Shown: in pieces, positions 21,637-58,747 of the stretch | Position numbering within the stretch: position 1 is the stretch's first letter | How the letters are laid out: each line of letters opens with the position of its first letter | Notes under the pieces: model-generated | Seen by the model: only the letters and a program-made list of their open reading frames with translations | The model's database searches: none | Told to the model about the DNA's origin: nothing | NCBI GenBank assembly: GCA_002286715.1 | Contig: NSJX01000027.1 | Span: 186,001 to 250,000, forward strand | Length of the DNA stretch: 64,000 nucleotides | Reading direction: 5' to 3' | Source of the DNA: Dentipellis sp. KUC8613 | Lineage: Eukaryota > Basidiomycota > Agaricomycetes > Russulales > Hericiaceae | Made by a program: the position numbers and the translations under genes

Positions 21637-24600
21637 TCAGACCATAAGAGACATACGACAGATAAACAAGAGAATCCCAAGAACCAAGACGGCCCGCTGA
21701 CGCGCGTTCATCCTCTCCTCGTTCCTCGGGCCATCCCCAACTCTCCCCGCAAACCAGTCAAACCGCCACCCAAGCAGCATCACCTCTCCACGCTCCAGAA
21801 TCCCAGCCACGCGCCCCCACTCACTGAACATGCGAACCAGCGAGCTCTCCACCACAGCCACAAACCAGCGCACGCCAGTGACAGACGTGTTCATGGTCCG
21901 CATCCTGTCCGCATCGCGCCAGAGGTGACGATAAACATCATGGACAACATTCGCGAGCAGCGTCGCGACGAACATCTTCACCGAGAAGACGAGGAGCCAA
22001 GTCGAGTTCGCCGCGACGACGGCGAACGTACCTAACAAAAACATCACAGCTCCAAGGAGGAAAAATTCCGCGCTATTGGGCGCGCCGCCGAAGTACGTCA
22101 ACTCGGGGTACATCCTCACCAGCCCGCCATCTCCCTTCGACCACATATAAAAGCGCCAATACGACCTCCTGCCGCCATTCCACCACGGGTGCGTGACGAC
22201 CACGTCCGGCGCCGCGCAGAAGCCCGTCCCGCCATGTTCGAGCGCATACGCGCGCTTGCGGAGCACATAGTCGATATCCTCGCCGCCGCCCGTCTTCGGG
22301 AACTGCAGGTCGAACTGCACGCCGTCCGGCGCGCTGCGGCGCGCGATCAGGTTCGCGGTGACGCCCCATGGGAGGTCGTCCGCCGCACCGGGGAGCTTCG
22401 CCGCGATGTCCCAGAAGTACGTCACGCCGGCAAGGTGCAGCGCAGCCGTAAAGACGCGGTCCGCGCACGGCAGGCGCGCGGTGCCGACGAACCCGGCGGC
22501 GGCGGGCGCGGCGCGGATGGCGCGCTCGGCGGCGAGGAGCAGGTCGTGCGCGGGCAGGACGTCGTCGTCGAGGAAGAAGGCCCACTCCGCGGCGGACTCG
22601 CGCAGGCCGCGGTTGCGTGATGCGGAGGCGCCGAGGTTCTGCACGTTGATGCGGATGCGCACGTCTGGGCGGTGGGCGTAGCGCTGCTCGAGGGCGGCGA
22701 TGTGGGGGGAATTTGGGTCGTCGATGATGACGATAAACATGACCGTGCAGTCCTTCGATGGCTCGAGCTCTAGGATGGGTCGGAGGTATCGCATCTGGAC
22801 GCGGTAGCAGGGGATTATGATGTCGATGGTCAACTTTCTGCAGGCACTGGGATTCACCGCTTGCAAAGACTGCTCCAAAGCATCGGTCGCACAATCGAGT
22901 ACACCAAAGGTCCAGTCGACCGCGTGCTGCTTCTCGTAGCGAGCATTGTCGCTACCGCCCAAATTATTGCGGATGCGAGAGCCGAACATCCTAGAGCACC
23001 CGAATCGGCGATAAAGCTGGAACAAGAACGGATCGCCGTCCTGGTTCACAAAGCTGTCGGGAACCACATCTCCCTGGAAGACGTCCGTATGATTGCGATG
23101 AACGATTGGGAAAGTCGGCATGCCGGGGAAGGAGGTATCTGTAAAAGCAACACAACCAAATCCTACCGGTACGCCTTCCGCCTTGGCAATATCCGCGAAC
23201 TCTGCCTCCGCATCCCGCATCCAGCCCTCGTCCTGCAGCTCAACGTCATCTCCCAAAAGAATGAAATAATCGCAGCCGTCTTCCCATGCCCTGCGGGCGC
23301 AGGCACGCCAGAGGTGGCATATATACCCCGGTGGAAACGTGCACTCCAAGACCTTCACATCGGAGAACCCCGCCTTCAACAACACATCCACCGCCTTGTT
23401 CTCAGGCTGCAGAAGGAATGTATCAACAGCATCGATGGCGAGGTATATCTTGATACGAAAGCGCTTCCCCCCAAGTTGATGCATGTCGCGCCACGTCGTC
23501 CGCTCCAGCGAGTGCGCGAAGCGTCCAAGATGCTCGAGGCAGTCCTCCGGGGCACCTGCGCCCCGCGACGTGATCGGCAGCAGCACCGCGAACGTGGTCC
23601 TCTCGAGCTTCATATCCACGAGGCGGCTTTCTTGCAGTCCTTCCAGAAAGGCGACGCGTGCGCTGGGGTTGAGGGGTCGAAGGCGTGTATCGATCTCCCT
23701 CTGCATCCAAAGCGCTGTATCGTTCAACCCGTGTTCCAGTGGCGTGGCGGGCCTCCAATCTAACGCCTCCAAGACAAATTCATTATTCGAGTTGCGCAAG
23801 GCAACGCCAACCGGCTTGTGGAGGTCGAACTTGAAGTCCACGTCGGCCTCCTCCAATCCCGCGGCACGGACAGCGATCCTCGCCAGTTCGGATATCGTGA
23901 CAGACTGGTCTGATCCGATATTGACGATCTTGGTATCCTTCGCCTCGACGCCATCAACTTGAAAGAGAAAACGTTCAATGGCTTGAACGCAATCTTCGAT
24001 ATACAGGAAACTGCGGCGCTGGTCGCCACTCCCCCAGACCTCCATGGCGGGCTTCGTCTTCGTCTGCTCGAAGAGCCGCCGCGCGCAGATTGCTTTGCGG
24101 AGCAGGGCCGCGGGAGCTTTCTCCCGGCCGTCGCACCAGGCCCCTCGCGGCCCGTACACATTGTGGAACCGGGCGATGCACAGCGTCATTTTTGACTCGA
24201 ACTGCTGCAGGAGGATCTCCGAGACGAGCTTCTCTAGACCATATAGTCCTTGCGGCTTCGGCGGCGGCTTCGCCCAAACGTCGTCCTCGCGGAGCGAGAC
24301 GTCCTTGTTGTCTGAACCCTGGAGAGACTCGGGGTAGACGCACGCAGAGGAGGCGTAGAAGAGCCGCTTGACGCCTGCAGCGATGCATGCGCGGACGATG
24401 TTGACCGTCATCGCCTGGTTCTCCTCGTAGATCTCGAAATCATTCTCCTCGTGGATGGTCCCCATGCCGCCCATGACTGCGGCGAAGTGCAGCACCGTGT
24501 GTGCGCCTTGGACGATGCGGGTGCAGAAGGCCGGGTCGCAGAGGTTGCCGACGACGAGCTCGTCGCAGATGGGCTCCGTGAAAAGCGAGGTCGGTTTGAT

Positions 24601-24756
24601 ATCAACGATGCGGACGAACTGATCACAGTTGCGAAGCATTACGGCCACATGGGATCCCTGAAAATATAGTGAGGATGTAGCGCAAGGGATAATCAGGAAG
24701 CTGCTGACGATGAACCCATTGCCGCCCGTCACGACGTATACCTGCTTTCCCGTCAT
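21637..24756 (-). CDS. GDP-mannose 3,5-epimerase fused to two glycosyltransferases
   Basis: Two exons, 24756-24709 and 24657-21637, give 1022 residues. Residues 1 to about 350 are an extended SDR epimerase very like plant GDP-mannose 3,5-epimerase: TGGNGFIGSH, AAVMGGMG, SSACVYPE with Cys122, Tyr155xxxLys159, and RFHNVYGP followed by GREKAPAAL with Lys196. These match the Tyr/Lys pair and the acid/base Cys and Lys of the plant enzyme, so activity is likely; the expected product is GDP-L-galactose or GDP-L-gulose. About 370-612 is a GT-A-like domain with FILLGDDVELQDEGW. About 625-870 is a GT2-like domain with IIIPCY, NLGASASRNRGLR, FFLDDDV and GGGEDIDY. Two hydrophobic helices follow at about 880-925 and one at the C-terminus (1004-1020), suggesting a Golgi or ER membrane enzyme. 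The single 51-nt intron contains no stop and lies inside the Rossmann motif. It is divergent from the methyltransferase-GT8 gene. Confidence 0.9.
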   Translation of the reverse strand: MTGKQVYVVTGGNGFIVSSFLIIPCATSSLYFQGSHVAVMLRNCDQFVRIVDIKPTSLFTEPICDELVVGNLCDPAFCTRIVQGAHTVLHFAAVMGGMGTIHEENDFEIYEENQAMTVNIVRACIAAGVKRLFYASSACVYPESLQGSDNKDVSLREDDVWAKPPPKPQGLYGLEKLVSEILLQQFESKMTLCIARFHNVYGPRGAWCDGREKAPAALLRKAICARRLFEQTKTKPAMEVWGSGDQRRSFLYIEDCVQAIERFLFQVDGVEAKDTKIVNIGSDQSVTISELARIAVRAAGLEEADVDFKFDLHKPVGVALRNSNNEFVLEALDWRPATPLEHGLNDTALWMQREIDTRLRPLNPSARVAFLEGLQESRLVDMKLERTTFAVLLPITSRGAGAPEDCLEHLGRFAHSLERTTWRDMHQLGGKRFRIKIYLAIDAVDTFLLQPENKAVDVLLKAGFSDVKVLECTFPPGYICHLWRACARRAWEDGCDYFILLGDDVELQDEGWMRDAEAEFADIAKAEGVPVGFGCVAFTDTSFPGMPTFPIVHRNHTDVFQGDVVPDSFVNQDGDPFLFQLYRRFGCSRMFGSRIRNNLGGSDNARYEKQHAVDWTFGVLDCATDALEQSLQAVNPSACRKLTIDIIIPCYRVQMRYLRPILELEPSKDCTVMFIVIIDDPNSPHIAALEQRYAHRPDVRIRINVQNLGASASRNRGLRESAAEWAFFLDDDVLPAHDLLLAAERAIRAAPAAAGFVGTARLPCADRVFTAALHLAGVTYFWDIAAKLPGAADDLPWGVTANLIARRSAPDGVQFDLQFPKTGGGEDIDYVLRKRAYALEHGGTGFCAAPDVVVTHPWWNGGRRSYWRFYMWSKGDGGLVRMYPELTYFGGAPNSAEFFLLGAVMFLLGTFAVVAANSTWLLVFSVKMFVATLLANVVHDVYRHLWRDADRMRTMNTSVTGVRWFVAVVESSLVRMFSEWGRVAGILERGEVMLLGWRFDWFAGRVGDGPRNEERMNARQRAVLVLGILLFICRMSLMV

Positions 24757-25559
24757 GGTTGGGAGGGTACAGAGCTCACCAGCCAACACAAGATCTTTAA
24801 GGACCGGCAATGCTGGACATTCTGGCAGCGATCTTCCAGATACACTCTGGCCCCATATCACTGACACCCCATTAATGGAGTGCTTCGCGAGGTACCCGCG
24901 TCCAAAAACTCCACGATAACAGACAAACTTTCAGGGTTCCTGTTCAGCATAGAGGCCGCCAAGGACCATGAGGCGACGGTGACCCGGCGATTAGCACCTC
25001 CATAGCGACTCATCATAGCGGGGACGGCCTGAAAAGCACTGTACCACTCTATTCAGGACAACAACGCCGCTCCTTCACTCCACGTTGCGTACTCGAATAG
25101 ACTCGGAGCTGTCAGCGTACTGCGGAGAAGGACGTCGGAGCCTCCCGCCCGCAGCACGATGTTCTTCGTAGACGAGGCCAGGTCGTCCAGAGACGCCTCG
25201 ACGTACGTATCGTTGGAGGAGCCAATACAGACGACGGGCTATGTTTGACGTGTATCCTGGGTGCATGGTCCTGAGGCGCCCATTGTCACGACATACTGCG
25301 GAAAACGCGCGGATAGTTGGGAAGAGGAAAGCTGGAAAAGGAAGATCTAAACTCGTGAGCGATTAGCAAGAACCCCATGATACTAGGATGGTACCTCGAC
25401 TGTGGCGTTTGCGTATATCTCAGAGACAAAGGGGTGAACGATGTATCTTCACCCAACCACACCCACTCTCATCCCTACTCCATCCTACTTTTCCAAACTT
25501 CATCCCACTTGTTGAAGTGGGGCGCATATAGTGAGTTGATACCGTCCACCTAGAGGGAA
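24757..25559. other. Divergent promoter region of the two sugar genes
   Basis: About 800 bp between two divergent starts, so both genes may be co-regulated from here. The last 120 bp before 25560 are CT-rich, with repeated ccactc/catccta-like words. Short open frames here lack family motifs. No TATA box stands out. Confidence 0.5.
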
Positions 25560-27218
25560 ATGCTCAGCCAAAGTCACATCCAGAACATCATGTCCGACAC
25601 CAACACCGACGCCTACCTCTTCACGCCAACGCAAGACTGGTTCACCTTCAACATCGCCAACTGGAAGACCCTCTTCCCGCGCATCACCTCTCCCGCACCG
25701 CGCGTGCTCGAAATCGGGTCCTGGGAAGGCCGCTCGGCCATCTTCCTCCTGACAGAGCTCTGCAACCCGCACGGCAGCATCGTCTGCATCGACCACTTCG
25801 ACCTCTTCCACACCGCCGCGGGGCGCGAGCGGCACCGCAAGCTCACACACAACCTCTCGCTCACCGGCAAGCCGCACCGGATCCTCGACCACTTCAGCTT
25901 CCCGGCGCTCATGCTGCTGCTCGAGGAAGAGATGTCCTCGACGAATCCCGGGTTCGACTGGGTCTACGTCGACGGCTCGCACGAGGCGGACGACACGTTC
26001 CTCGACGGCGAGCTCGCGTGGCGCCTCGCGCGCAAGGGCGCGGTGTTCATCTTCGACGACTACAAGTGGAGCGTCGAGTGCGCCGGGGGCGCGCACCACC
26101 CGCAGCGGGGCGTCGACGCGTTCATGGCGCTGCATGCGGGCGAGTACGAGCGCATTTCCGGGCCGGAGCAGTACCAGATGATCTTGCAGAAGACGACGGA
26201 GATGCGCATCGGGTTTTTGGTGAAGGACAAGGCGGGGTGTGATGGGCGGCTGGCGAACGCGCTTGGGTATGGGATCAATGTGGTCTACACCGTGGACTCG
26301 GCGTATGCAATGCCTGCGGCAGTCTCCATCCGCAGCCTCCTGGAGAACACCCGCAGTAAAGTCACGGTGTATGTCGTAGATTGCGGCCTTGCGGAATCCG
26401 ACAGGACACAGATCCAAGACTCCATACCACACCGCGAAGACACGAGCCTCATTTTCCTTGACGTCCCTGCAGAACTTGCCAGCAGTGCCACTGGAGGAGC
26501 CACCTGGGCAAAGGTGCATCTGTCCAAGATCCTCCCAGTCGAACGTGTCCTCTACCTCGACGGCGACACATTGATTCGGTCGGACATCAAGGAGCTGTGG
26601 GACACCGACTTGCAAGGAAATGCACTTGGTGCCGTGGTCGATGTCGGCTATCCCACAGGCCACGCCGGTGCCAGTGAAACCCAATACAGTGCACCCTACT
26701 TCAACGCCGGAGTGATGCTCATGGACCTCACTCAAATCCGCGCTCGGCAACCAACCCTCGAAGAGTCGGCCCAAAAGGGCCTGGAGATGCCTTACGGAGA
26801 CCAAGACGTGCTGAACGCACATTTCCAGGGAGACTGGTCAGTGCTGCCGATGAAGTGGAACGCACAAGGGCTGGGAACGTACGCCAATGCTCCATCTGCA
26901 GAAGGCAACGCTCTCAACATCCCAGAGGTCTTCAACAACCCATCAATCGTCCACTTCACAGGGCCCGTGCACCCCGACATGGAGGCCATCCTCAACCCAT
27001 ACGTGCAGCCCTGCACCGCAAAGCCATGGGGGTACCTCGGCGCGCCCGGACACCCGTACGCAGAGGCGTGGTGGTCCGTGCTGGAGAGGACAAGCTGGAA
27101 GGGCTACCGCGACTCGGACGCGTTCAAGGTGTTGTGCAAGGAGGGAAGTGCCGAGGCGACGCGGCGCGCGGTGGCCAAGTTCGAGGAGCGCGTTCGAGCC
27201 GGCGGCGCGCCAAAATAG
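25560..27218 (+). CDS. SAM methyltransferase fused to GT8 glycosyltransferase
   Basis: Uninterrupted 552-residue frame, with no intron in 1.66 kb. Residues about 40-225 form a class I methyltransferase of the Methyltransf_24 type: VLEIGSWEGRSAIF is the SAM-binding loop, and VYVDGSHEADDTFLDGELAW with IFDDYKW are the typical later strands. Residues about 240-520 are a GT8 glycosyltransferase: VVYTVDSAYAMPAAVSIRSL, the metal-binding DGD at 334-336 (VLYLDGDTLI), FNAGVMLMDL, YGDQDVLNAHF and a VHFTGPVHP motif. No signal peptide or membrane segment is seen, so it may be cytosolic or bind the membrane-anchored partner encoded divergently. A second ATG at 25590 could also be the start. A 440-residue antisense frame is a codon shadow. 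The likely job is addition and O-methylation of a hexose or uronic acid on a glycan. Confidence 0.9.
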   Translation: MLSQSHIQNIMSDTNTDAYLFTPTQDWFTFNIANWKTLFPRITSPAPRVLEIGSWEGRSAIFLLTELCNPHGSIVCIDHFDLFHTAAGRERHRKLTHNLSLTGKPHRILDHFSFPALMLLLEEEMSSTNPGFDWVYVDGSHEADDTFLDGELAWRLARKGAVFIFDDYKWSVECAGGAHHPQRGVDAFMALHAGEYERISGPEQYQMILQKTTEMRIGFLVKDKAGCDGRLANALGYGINVVYTVDSAYAMPAAVSIRSLLENTRSKVTVYVVDCGLAESDRTQIQDSIPHREDTSLIFLDVPAELASSATGGATWAKVHLSKILPVERVLYLDGDTLIRSDIKELWDTDLQGNALGAVVDVGYPTGHAGASETQYSAPYFNAGVMLMDLTQIRARQPTLEESAQKGLEMPYGDQDVLNAHFQGDWSVLPMKWNAQGLGTYANAPSAEGNALNIPEVFNNPSIVHFTGPVHPDMEAILNPYVQPCTAKPWGYLGAPGHPYAEAWWSVLERTSWKGYRDSDAFKVLCKEGSAEATRRAVAKFEERVRAGGAPK

Positions 27219-34395: not shown

Positions 34396-35872
34396 ATGAC
34401 CTCTGAGTTCACCGAGACTGCCGTCCAAACCACAGAAGATGTTACCAATGGCATCACTAGCCTGAAGCTGACTTCAGAGAAGCCCGTCGATAGTTCAGAG
34501 GATGTACGTCTTTAATAACCATCCACAATCATATTCTGACTCTCATCTGAATTATGCAAAATAGAGCGGCCCAGCATACCCTTTCTACTATCCCTACTTC
34601 GACCCGCAAGAAAAACATCCACCTACCGAGCTTTTCGAATTCACAGACCCCGGTCTACGAGCAGACCCCACAAAACCACATCTACTCTCCGAGGGTGTCA
34701 CAGCCAAAATGATCAGCCCATACATCGGTACCGAACTGCGTGGCGTGCAGCTTTCCCAACTGAGCAAAGAAGGCCTCGACGAGCTCGCCCTCTTCACTGC
34801 CGAGCGCAAACTGGTCATATTCCGCGACCAAGACTTCAAAGACATCAGCACCCCGCGCCAGATTGAAATCGCGCGCCACTTCGGGCCTCTACAGAGCAAC
34901 CCTACGTCTGGAAACGTGAAAGGGTACCCTGAGTTCCACATTGGTTCGTCTATCTAATACTACTATGTTCCCCCCGGTACGCACCGTCCGTTGAGGGATA
35001 TTTCTAAATCAACCCCCGCATGCAGTATACCGTGACGCGCAGCTCAACCGCCGAGACTACCTCAACAACAGCCGCGCCAACCACACCTACTGGCACTCCG
35101 ACGGTGTACGGCACTTCCCCCCCAACATCCCTCCTCTAACCCTCACTAACACACCACAAATCTCTCCTCACAGTCCTACGAACTGCAACCCCCCGGCACC
35201 ACGATCTTCTTCATCCTCGAGCAGCCCCAAACCGGCGGGGACACCATCTTCGCATCTCAAGTTGAGGCGTACAACCGGCTGTCCCCCGCGTTCCGGAAGC
35301 GCCTCGAGGGCCTGCGCGCGGTGCACTCGTCTGTGCCACATGAACTGTTTGCGCGCTCGCGGAAACGCGGGGCGACGCTGCGGCGCGAGAATCTCGAAAC
35401 CGAGGTGAGCGGTGCACTATCCCAGATCCCAGATCCCAGAACCTCCATTCACCTCCCGCACCCTGCAAACCCCCGTCCGGTCTGCCGCCGCAGCACCCGC
35501 TCGTCCGCCAGCACCCCGTCACCGGCGAGAAAGCGCTCTTCCTCAACCCCGCCTTCACGAGACGCATCGTGGGGTTCAAAGCCGAGGAATCGGAGCACCT
35601 CCTCCGCTTCCTGCTCGACCACATCACCACGGGCGCCGATTTCCACGTCCGCGCGGCGTACGAGCCGGGGACTGTTGTCGTTTGGGTGCGTCTGCGTCTT
35701 CTTCATTGCATCTACTGCAAGGGAACAGGAGGTTCAGCGTTGATGAATATTAATGTTATCTGCGCAGGACAATCGTGTGACTATGCATACGGCGACGCCG
35801 GATTATGATAATGGTGCGAGGCGGCATGCGGCGAGGCTGACGCCGCAGGCGGAGGTTCCTATCCCCGCTTGA
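34396..35872 (+). CDS. TauD/TfdA-family Fe(II)/2-oxoglutarate dioxygenase
   Basis: Non-haem iron dioxygenase; fungal relatives oxidise taurine, other sulfonates or related acids to release sulfite or modify a carboxylate. Six exons: 34396-34503, 34565-34943, 35026-35105, 35174-35404, 35494-35685 and 35768-35872; 364 residues. The iron-binding facial triad is visible as HSD (His186, Asp188) in NHTYWHSDG and the distal His337 in VTMHTATPDY; Arg353 is in place to bind 2-oxoglutarate. GTELRGVQLSQLS and VIFRDQDF are typical N-terminal strands. No targeting signal is seen. The exon 3 donor was placed at 35106 because only that choice keeps phase. Neighbours are an MFS transporter (divergent) and a P450 (convergent), which may suggest catabolic or detoxifying use. 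Confidence 0.93.
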
Positions 35873-57932: not shown

Positions 57933-58072
57933 TCAGTAAAAACGGTTAGTCAACAAATTTGATGAAATGGACTTTCAATTGCCATTTTGTGGACTTTTAC
58001 CCTCCTCAGCGACTAGTAACTGACTACGAAATTGACTAAATTTGATTGTCGAATTCATTTCCGGGGGGCTGT
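57933..58072 (+). repeat. Left terminal inverted repeat, 140 bp
   Basis: Matches 58608-58747 in reverse complement at every base; it runs directly into the N gap, so it may be longer. Confidence 0.95.
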
Positions 58073-58552
58073 NNNNNNNNNNNNNNNNNNNNNNNNNNNN
58101 NNNNNNNNNNNNNNNNNNNNNNNNNNNNNNNNNNNNNNNNNNNNNNNNNNNNNNNNNNNNNNNNNNNNNNNNNNNNNNNNNNNNNNNNNNNNNNNNNNNN
58201 NNNNNNNNNNNNNNNNNNNNNNNNNNNNNNNNNNNNNNNNNNNNNNNNNNNNNNNNNNNNNNNNNNNNNNNNNNNNNNNNNNNNNNNNNNNNNNNNNNNN
58301 NNNNNNNNNNNNNNNNNNNNNNNNNNNNNNNNNNNNNNNNNNNNNNNNNNNNNNNNNNNNNNNNNNNNNNNNNNNNNNNNNNNNNNNNNNNNNNNNNNNN
58401 NNNNNNNNNNNNNNNNNNNNNNNNNNNNNNNNNNNNNNNNNNNNNNNNNNNNNNNNNNNNNNNNNNNNNNNNNNNNNNNNNNNNNNNNNNNNNNNNNNNN
58501 NNNNNNNNNNNNNNNNNNNNNNNNNNNNNNNNNNNNNNNNNNNNNNNNNNNN
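58073..58552. other. Assembly gap (480 N)
   Basis: Run of N inside the inverted-repeat element. The real length is unknown; open frames that run through it are artefacts. Confidence 0.99.
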
Positions 58553-58607
58553 GCTTTTTTTCTAAGCGCTGCTTTGCCGCCTCGGCAATCCCGAATAGTT
58601 CATCAAC

Positions 58608-58747
58608 ACAGCCCCCCGGAAATGAATTCGACAATCAAATTTAGTCAATTTCGTAGTCAGTTACTAGTCGCTGAGGAGGGTAAAAGTCCACAAAATGGCA
58701 ATTGAAAGTCCATTTCATCAAATTTGTTGACTAACCGTTTTTACTGA
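58608..58747 (-). repeat. Right terminal inverted repeat, 140 bp
   Basis: Reverse complement of the left arm without mismatch. Confidence 0.95.

Follow-up and report, generated by a model that had tools for sequence, protein, structure and literature searches.

A 64,000-nucleotide stretch of contig NSJX01000027.1 from the basidiomycete Dentipellis sp. KUC8613 (assembly GCA_002286715.1, contig positions 186,001 to 250,000), hereafter the window, carries on its minus strand a gene that joins a GDP-mannose 3,5-epimerase (GME)-type domain to two glycosyltransferase (GT)-like domains and a predicted membrane region. The frame is open from stop to stop over 21637..24930 (1097 aa), and its coding region (21637..24756) runs from an ATG at 24756 to the stop codon at 21637-21639. 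Exon 1 (24709..24756, codons 1-16) is followed by a 51-nt, in-frame GT..AG intron (24708..24658 in the direction of the gene) that splits the Rossmann glycine motif, and then by exon 2 (21637..24657, codons 17-1022 and stop). The 17 residues that the intron would encode are absent from 11 of 12 aligned homologues, with P0014 showing a different 17-residue stretch at that place, and splicing yields a 1022-aa product identical to P0001, the annotated Dentipellis sp. KUC8613 protein whose source name is 'glycosyltransferase family 2 protein'. In first-order Markov simulations of 64 kb (n = 40), no stop-free frame exceeded 695 aa, and the longest per simulation averaged 317 aa. A genome search with the whole protein returned the fusion gene itself as the sole match.

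An initial annotation of the window had proposed three enzymatic domains in this one frame. Its coding frame holds, its numbering of Cys122, Tyr155/Lys159 and Lys196 agrees with the protein after splicing, and the open minus-strand frame does hold Pfam Epimerase and Glycos_transf_2 matches together with a middle domain, MID, predicted to be of GT-A type; the intron went unmentioned, as did the spread of the architecture. A whole-protein search, in which the 7997 candidates with the most shared words were scored and a length limit kept standalone parts from appearing, gave 382 matches at E <= 0.001. All of the best 120 of these, hereafter the listed fusions, share the order GME-MID-GT2; they come from several sources, measure 900-1150 aa in 114 cases, and, where an organism is named, belong to what we take to be Agaricomycetes throughout. 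At least one model, that for D. fragilis (P0002), is truncated within GT2. Judged by these sequences, the fusion is a protein common to mushroom-forming fungi, not one peculiar to the Dentipellis genome, and it is apparently unstudied. The earlier statement that no fungal GME-transferase chain had been described holds for function, since no functional description of such a fusion was found among the best-ranked papers of the literature searched (where coverage of subscription papers was thin), but the fusion itself is widespread in databases.

The epimerase region (23671..24756) accounts for the Pfam Epimerase match (E 7.8e-32) and has the extended short-chain dehydrogenase/reductase fold with its glycine motif. 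The catalytic [ST]..YxxxK residues are present as S120, Y155 and K159 (Arabidopsis S143, Y174 and K178), and the Cys/Lys acid-base pair is C122 and K196 (C145 and K217), found in 120/120 listed fusions. The Cys-acidifying R304 (R306), the diphosphate-binding R231 (R243) and N182 (N203) are each likewise invariant, and across all tested residues, the diphosphate-binding Arg included, conservation ranges from 117 to 120 of 120. The nearest solved structures are GMEs, the top GME match in the PDB having an E-value more than 30 orders of magnitude below that of the top non-GME match, and plant GMEs (Arabidopsis 2C54/2C59 and Myrciaria dubia 8SG0) are the top fold matches, leading by about 9 Z units at roughly 35% identity. 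A Lys base and an Arg beside the Cys tell GME from GDP-fucose synthase (PMC8787198), and both features are found here, in line with the plant-type GME domain named in the initial annotation; nor did domain searches place the region in a common fungal epimerase family lacking GME activity. Assignment of the N-terminal domain as a GME-type epimerase is supported at the level of sequence. The plant enzyme is a homodimer by itself (PMC8787198, whose main text contains no word starting 'fung'), whereas the fungal domain is the N-terminal part of a chain with a predicted membrane anchor.

Both transferase-like domains carry acidic motifs, and three strong hydropathy segments are consistent with membrane helices, as the initial annotation had also seen. 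The GT2 domain (residues 626 to ~899, 22009..22830) matches Pfam Glycos_transf_2 (PF00535) at E 3.4e-10, with 40.6 bits against a curated cut-off of 23.3. GT2 enzymes are characterized by an acidic metal motif and an ED base motif, here DDD at 713-715 (120/120 listed homologues) and ED at 809-810 (119/120, the remaining one being unaligned there). The QxxRW motif that marks processive GT2 synthases of the cellulose and hyaluronan type is absent from the fusion protein and occurs as a string somewhere in 4/120 listed homologues. The end of the GT2 domain overlaps the first predicted membrane segment (residues 881-899, 22009..22065), which is followed by a second (903-921, 21943..21999) and, at the C-terminus, a third (1004-1022, 21640..21696).

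MID (residues 366-612, 22870..23610) is predicted to adopt a GT-A fold with a DxD-like motif, GDDV at 485-488, and also contains NQDGDP at 554-559. It has no Pfam match at E <= 1, and a PHROG search with MID and two relatives gave none at E <= 0.01. A MID profile run against PDB sequences returned 18 matches at E <= 10, one of them below 0.001 (7uek, OT3, 1.6e-4, profile positions 31-89), which we did not accept as homology. WrtF, a GDP-L-fucose user, heads the list of fold matches, on a par with GTs of other donor specificity. Also on that list are the E. coli K4 chondroitin polymerase (2Z86/2Z87) and the Pasteurella heparosan synthase (8VH8), at 9-11% identity to MID; both are weak sequence matches to GT2. 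These polymerases have two tandem GT-A domains, no epimerase, and UDP-sugar donors. The fusion shares with such bifunctional enzymes a pair of motif-bearing GT domains, and by analogy might alternate two sugars. The best viral fold matches are proteins of Chrysochromulina ericina virus (A0A0N9QZS9, E 5.8e-15, TMq 0.71) and Cafeteria roenbergensis virus (E3T529, E 3.3e-12, TMq 0.74), uncharacterised proteins that share a MID-like domain only, at 18-20% identity. We regard MID as part of an unnamed GT-A family, which has P0320, P0326, P0329 and P0336 as distant members from metagenomes and these giant-virus proteins as fold relatives; the metagenomic members match no Pfam family at curated level, and two of them no PHROG either. 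A DNA pattern scan for viral relatives of MID matched 31 stretches, of which 0 encode one.

Searches with the separate parts extend this picture. With the epimerase alone, 7844 of 8000 scored candidates matched; among the best 120 of these, 110 contain GME only and 10 GME+MID, and the rows below the fungal ones, at about 40% identity, bear plant, dinoflagellate and bacterial names. Racocetra persica, presumably an arbuscular mycorrhizal fungus, has a partial protein that matched at 46% identity. The MID profile found 98 proteins, many of them short fragments, of which 80 show MID only, 16 MID+GT2 and 2 GME+MID. In a hand-picked comparison of 9 GME with 7 MID entries, four pairs, each of one GME and one MID piece, had equal longest contig sizes (4324, 4318, 8942 and 1370632 bases), which suggests that fusion or adjacency of GME and MID extends beyond the listed fusions. 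One 144-aa MID fragment (P0255) is filed under Calypogeia fissa, which we take to be a liverwort, on a 10.7-Mb contig, and may be a plant gene or a fungal contaminant.

A GME tree of 48 rows chosen from P0001-P0240 (LG+C20, midpoint-rooted for drawing only) contains a 100/100 branch that separates 18 rows, comprising fused and contig-linked sequences, Racocetra and some fragments, from 30 rows of plant, algal, bacterial and other GMEs. Under the midpoint root, Racocetra and one contig-linked sequence diverge first. That the fused GMEs of Agaricomycetes arose only once is not shown by the tree, because fragments fall among the nine labelled rows, which consequently need three label changes. Outside fungi, Methylacidiphilum fumariolicum has a GME that is presumably a standalone enzyme. 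Its characterization places GME activity outside plants, as we propose for the fusion (PMC6678494, PMC8787198). The description of GME as known from plants and algae, taken over from the initial annotation, is correct for those groups but incomplete, given this enzyme, two fungal sequences listed closest to the GME model in Table 1 of a 2011 survey (PMC3220709), and GME-like proteins (E <= 1e-80) in 151/313 genomes of one verrucomicrobial order.

The two transferase domains are also found together in a chain that lacks the epimerase. A protein encoded in a Verrucomicrobia metagenome-assembled genome (L002, CANGMH010000440.1, 1675-3444) shares MID, GT2 and the start of the membrane region with the fusion at 43% identity over 539 aa, but has no GME domain; the 3.4-kb contig also encodes RadC, and its shortness leaves mis-binning possible. 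It was found by one degenerate-pattern scan (22 stretches matched, 1 confirmed), and searches of 288 genomes from the phylum and 320 from the order turned up no other genome with a MID+GT2 gene. The same assembly encodes a standalone GME-like gene, a co-occurrence that we dropped as a functional link because 151/313 genomes of the order have GME-like genes anyway. Transfer of the transferase pair between bacteria and fungi, in either direction, is possible.

On balance we favor, by a small degree, the reading that a single membrane-anchored protein both makes an L-sugar nucleotide, GDP-L-galactose or GDP-L-gulose, and uses it through its own transferases. The self-contained synthesis and transfer already suggested by the initial annotation is also what we infer. 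In such a scheme, which would cover reaction, donor use, number of sugars, acceptor and topology, the N-terminal domain would oxidize GDP-D-mannose at C4, epimerize it at C5 and C3 by means of Cys122 and Lys196, and reduce it again, to give GDP-L-galactose and perhaps GDP-L-gulose as well. The two GT-A-type transferases would work at the cytosolic face of the same membrane, at least one transferring the L-hexose made by the adjoining domain and the other adding the preceding or following sugar, for which the simplest candidate is D-mannose drawn from the same GDP-mannose pool. The product, a two-sugar or repeating one if two-domain polymerases are a guide, may be a glycan or glycolipid that contains L-galactose, either short or built of repeats; it would be formed at the cytosolic face and later exported.

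Among the alternatives, the one that survives best, though we consider it unlikely, is that the epimerase acts on another nucleotide sugar or mainly yields another epimer, such as GDP-L-gulose or GDP-altrose, so that the transferred sugar is not L-galactose. GMEs can yield product mixtures (PMC8787198), the 100/100 branch sets the fused GMEs, with their nearest relatives, apart from standalone GMEs, and identity to the plant enzymes, which lie on the far side, is modest; yet the tested residues, including the diphosphate-binding Arg, are almost invariant among the listed fusions, and plant GMEs remain by far the best fold matches. Slightly less probable still, in our estimate, is a fusion that serves joint expression or targeting only, with the GT pair keeping an older donor (GDP-mannose or a UDP-sugar, for example) and the GDP-L-sugar being used elsewhere. 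The GME-free protein of the Verrucomicrobia assembly and the 80/98 MID matches with MID alone, many of them fragments, would fit that arrangement, but all of the listed fusions retain the epimerase, and no separate sink for GDP-L-galactose is obvious. Ascorbate analogues in fungi are made by other routes (PMC4396506), so a supply of GDP-L-galactose for ascorbate is not expected, and the most economical reading is that the attached transferases use it. That annotation merged neighboring genes with separate transcripts is very improbable: the Lentinula aciculospora epimerase (P0130) and transferase (P0242) are indeed two proteins, whose longest contigs are equally long, but the Dentipellis frame is open across all domains and linkers for more than 3 kb, and the same single chain recurs in every listed fusion, whatever the source. 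Nor is the N-terminal domain at all likely to be a GDP-L-fucose synthase (GMER) or a UDP-glucose 4-epimerase (GalE): the top NCBIfam model is indeed GDP-L-fucose synthase, far under its cut-off (87.5 against 500 bits), but GMER has a His base and a Lys beside the Cys and GalE lacks the acid/base pair (PMC8787198), identities contradicted by Lys196 and Arg304 and by Cys122/Lys196, respectively, as well as by the scores and the PDB E-values.

Several observations weigh against synthesis and use of GDP-L-galactose within one chain. The main text of a nucleotide-sugar survey of 491 fungi contains neither 'L-galactose' nor 'GME' (PMC8092308), and L-galactose in mushrooms was not reported among the best 4 to 20 papers of each literature search, a weak negative in that most subscription papers lay outside coverage. 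Since a supported branch divides the fused from the standalone GMEs, substrate drift is possible. The existence of the two-GT unit without an epimerase means that its ancestral donor need not be GDP-L-galactose, and the predicted folds, with WrtF tied to users of other donors, do not name the GT that would take it. The step from epimerase to transferase is itself read from sequence and modeled folds.

The sole sugar-related neighbor found lies 0.8 kb upstream of the fusion gene and divergent from it: one uninterrupted plus-strand frame (25560..27218, 552 aa) that combines Methyltransf_24 and GT8, has one match in the genome, and is a possible partner. A scan of 20 of the 67 flanking frames, aimed at a conserved gene cluster, gave no sugar family, and its one family match was a TauD/TfdA dioxygenase fragment (PF02668, 5.2e-15) at 35153-35740 on the plus strand. 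The Epimerase family has 16 matches in the genome, nine of which were classified besides the fusion gene. They include a GDP-mannose 4,6-dehydratase (GMD; TIGR01472, 2e-97, a 181-aa stretch) at G000:C92:137614-138156, on the same contig about 70 kb away and outside the window, and a short exon of 71 aa that resembles GDP-fucose synthase (6.8e-12). With these separate sequences, GDP-L-fucose probably has its own genes in Dentipellis. Two GDP-mannose-consuming genes, GMD and the GME fusion, thus sit on one contig. A run of 480 N at 58073-58552 of the window makes the open frames listed over it (57975-58705) artefacts.

The proposal that a fungal GME-GT-GT chain makes and transfers an L-sugar is a fair hypothesis. 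In its widest form, to which we give somewhat less than even credence, mushroom-forming and perhaps arbuscular mycorrhizal fungi would make an unrecognised L-galactose or L-gulose glycan or glycolipid through a one-chain synthase that forms a GDP-L-sugar and transfers or polymerizes it at the cytosolic membrane face, a synthase that joined GME to an older two-transferase unit also present in at least one bacterium. MID would open a new family of transferases to characterization, and a natural epimerase-transferase chain could serve as a tool to produce L-galactosides with GDP-mannose as starting material. Many mushroom-forming fungi share the gene, and the sugar nucleotide that it predicts goes unmentioned in the main text of the 491-fungus wall-sugar inventory (PMC8092308). 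L-galactose could have stayed hidden where an analysis does not tell D from L forms, a limit that PMC6269047 notes for gas chromatography-mass spectrometry and high-performance anion-exchange chromatography with pulsed amperometric detection; in the available text of that paper L-galactose is named only as a standard. Should the protein make an L-galactose glycan, the surfaces of mushrooms, and perhaps mycorrhizal ones too, would have a new component and lectins a possible ligand.
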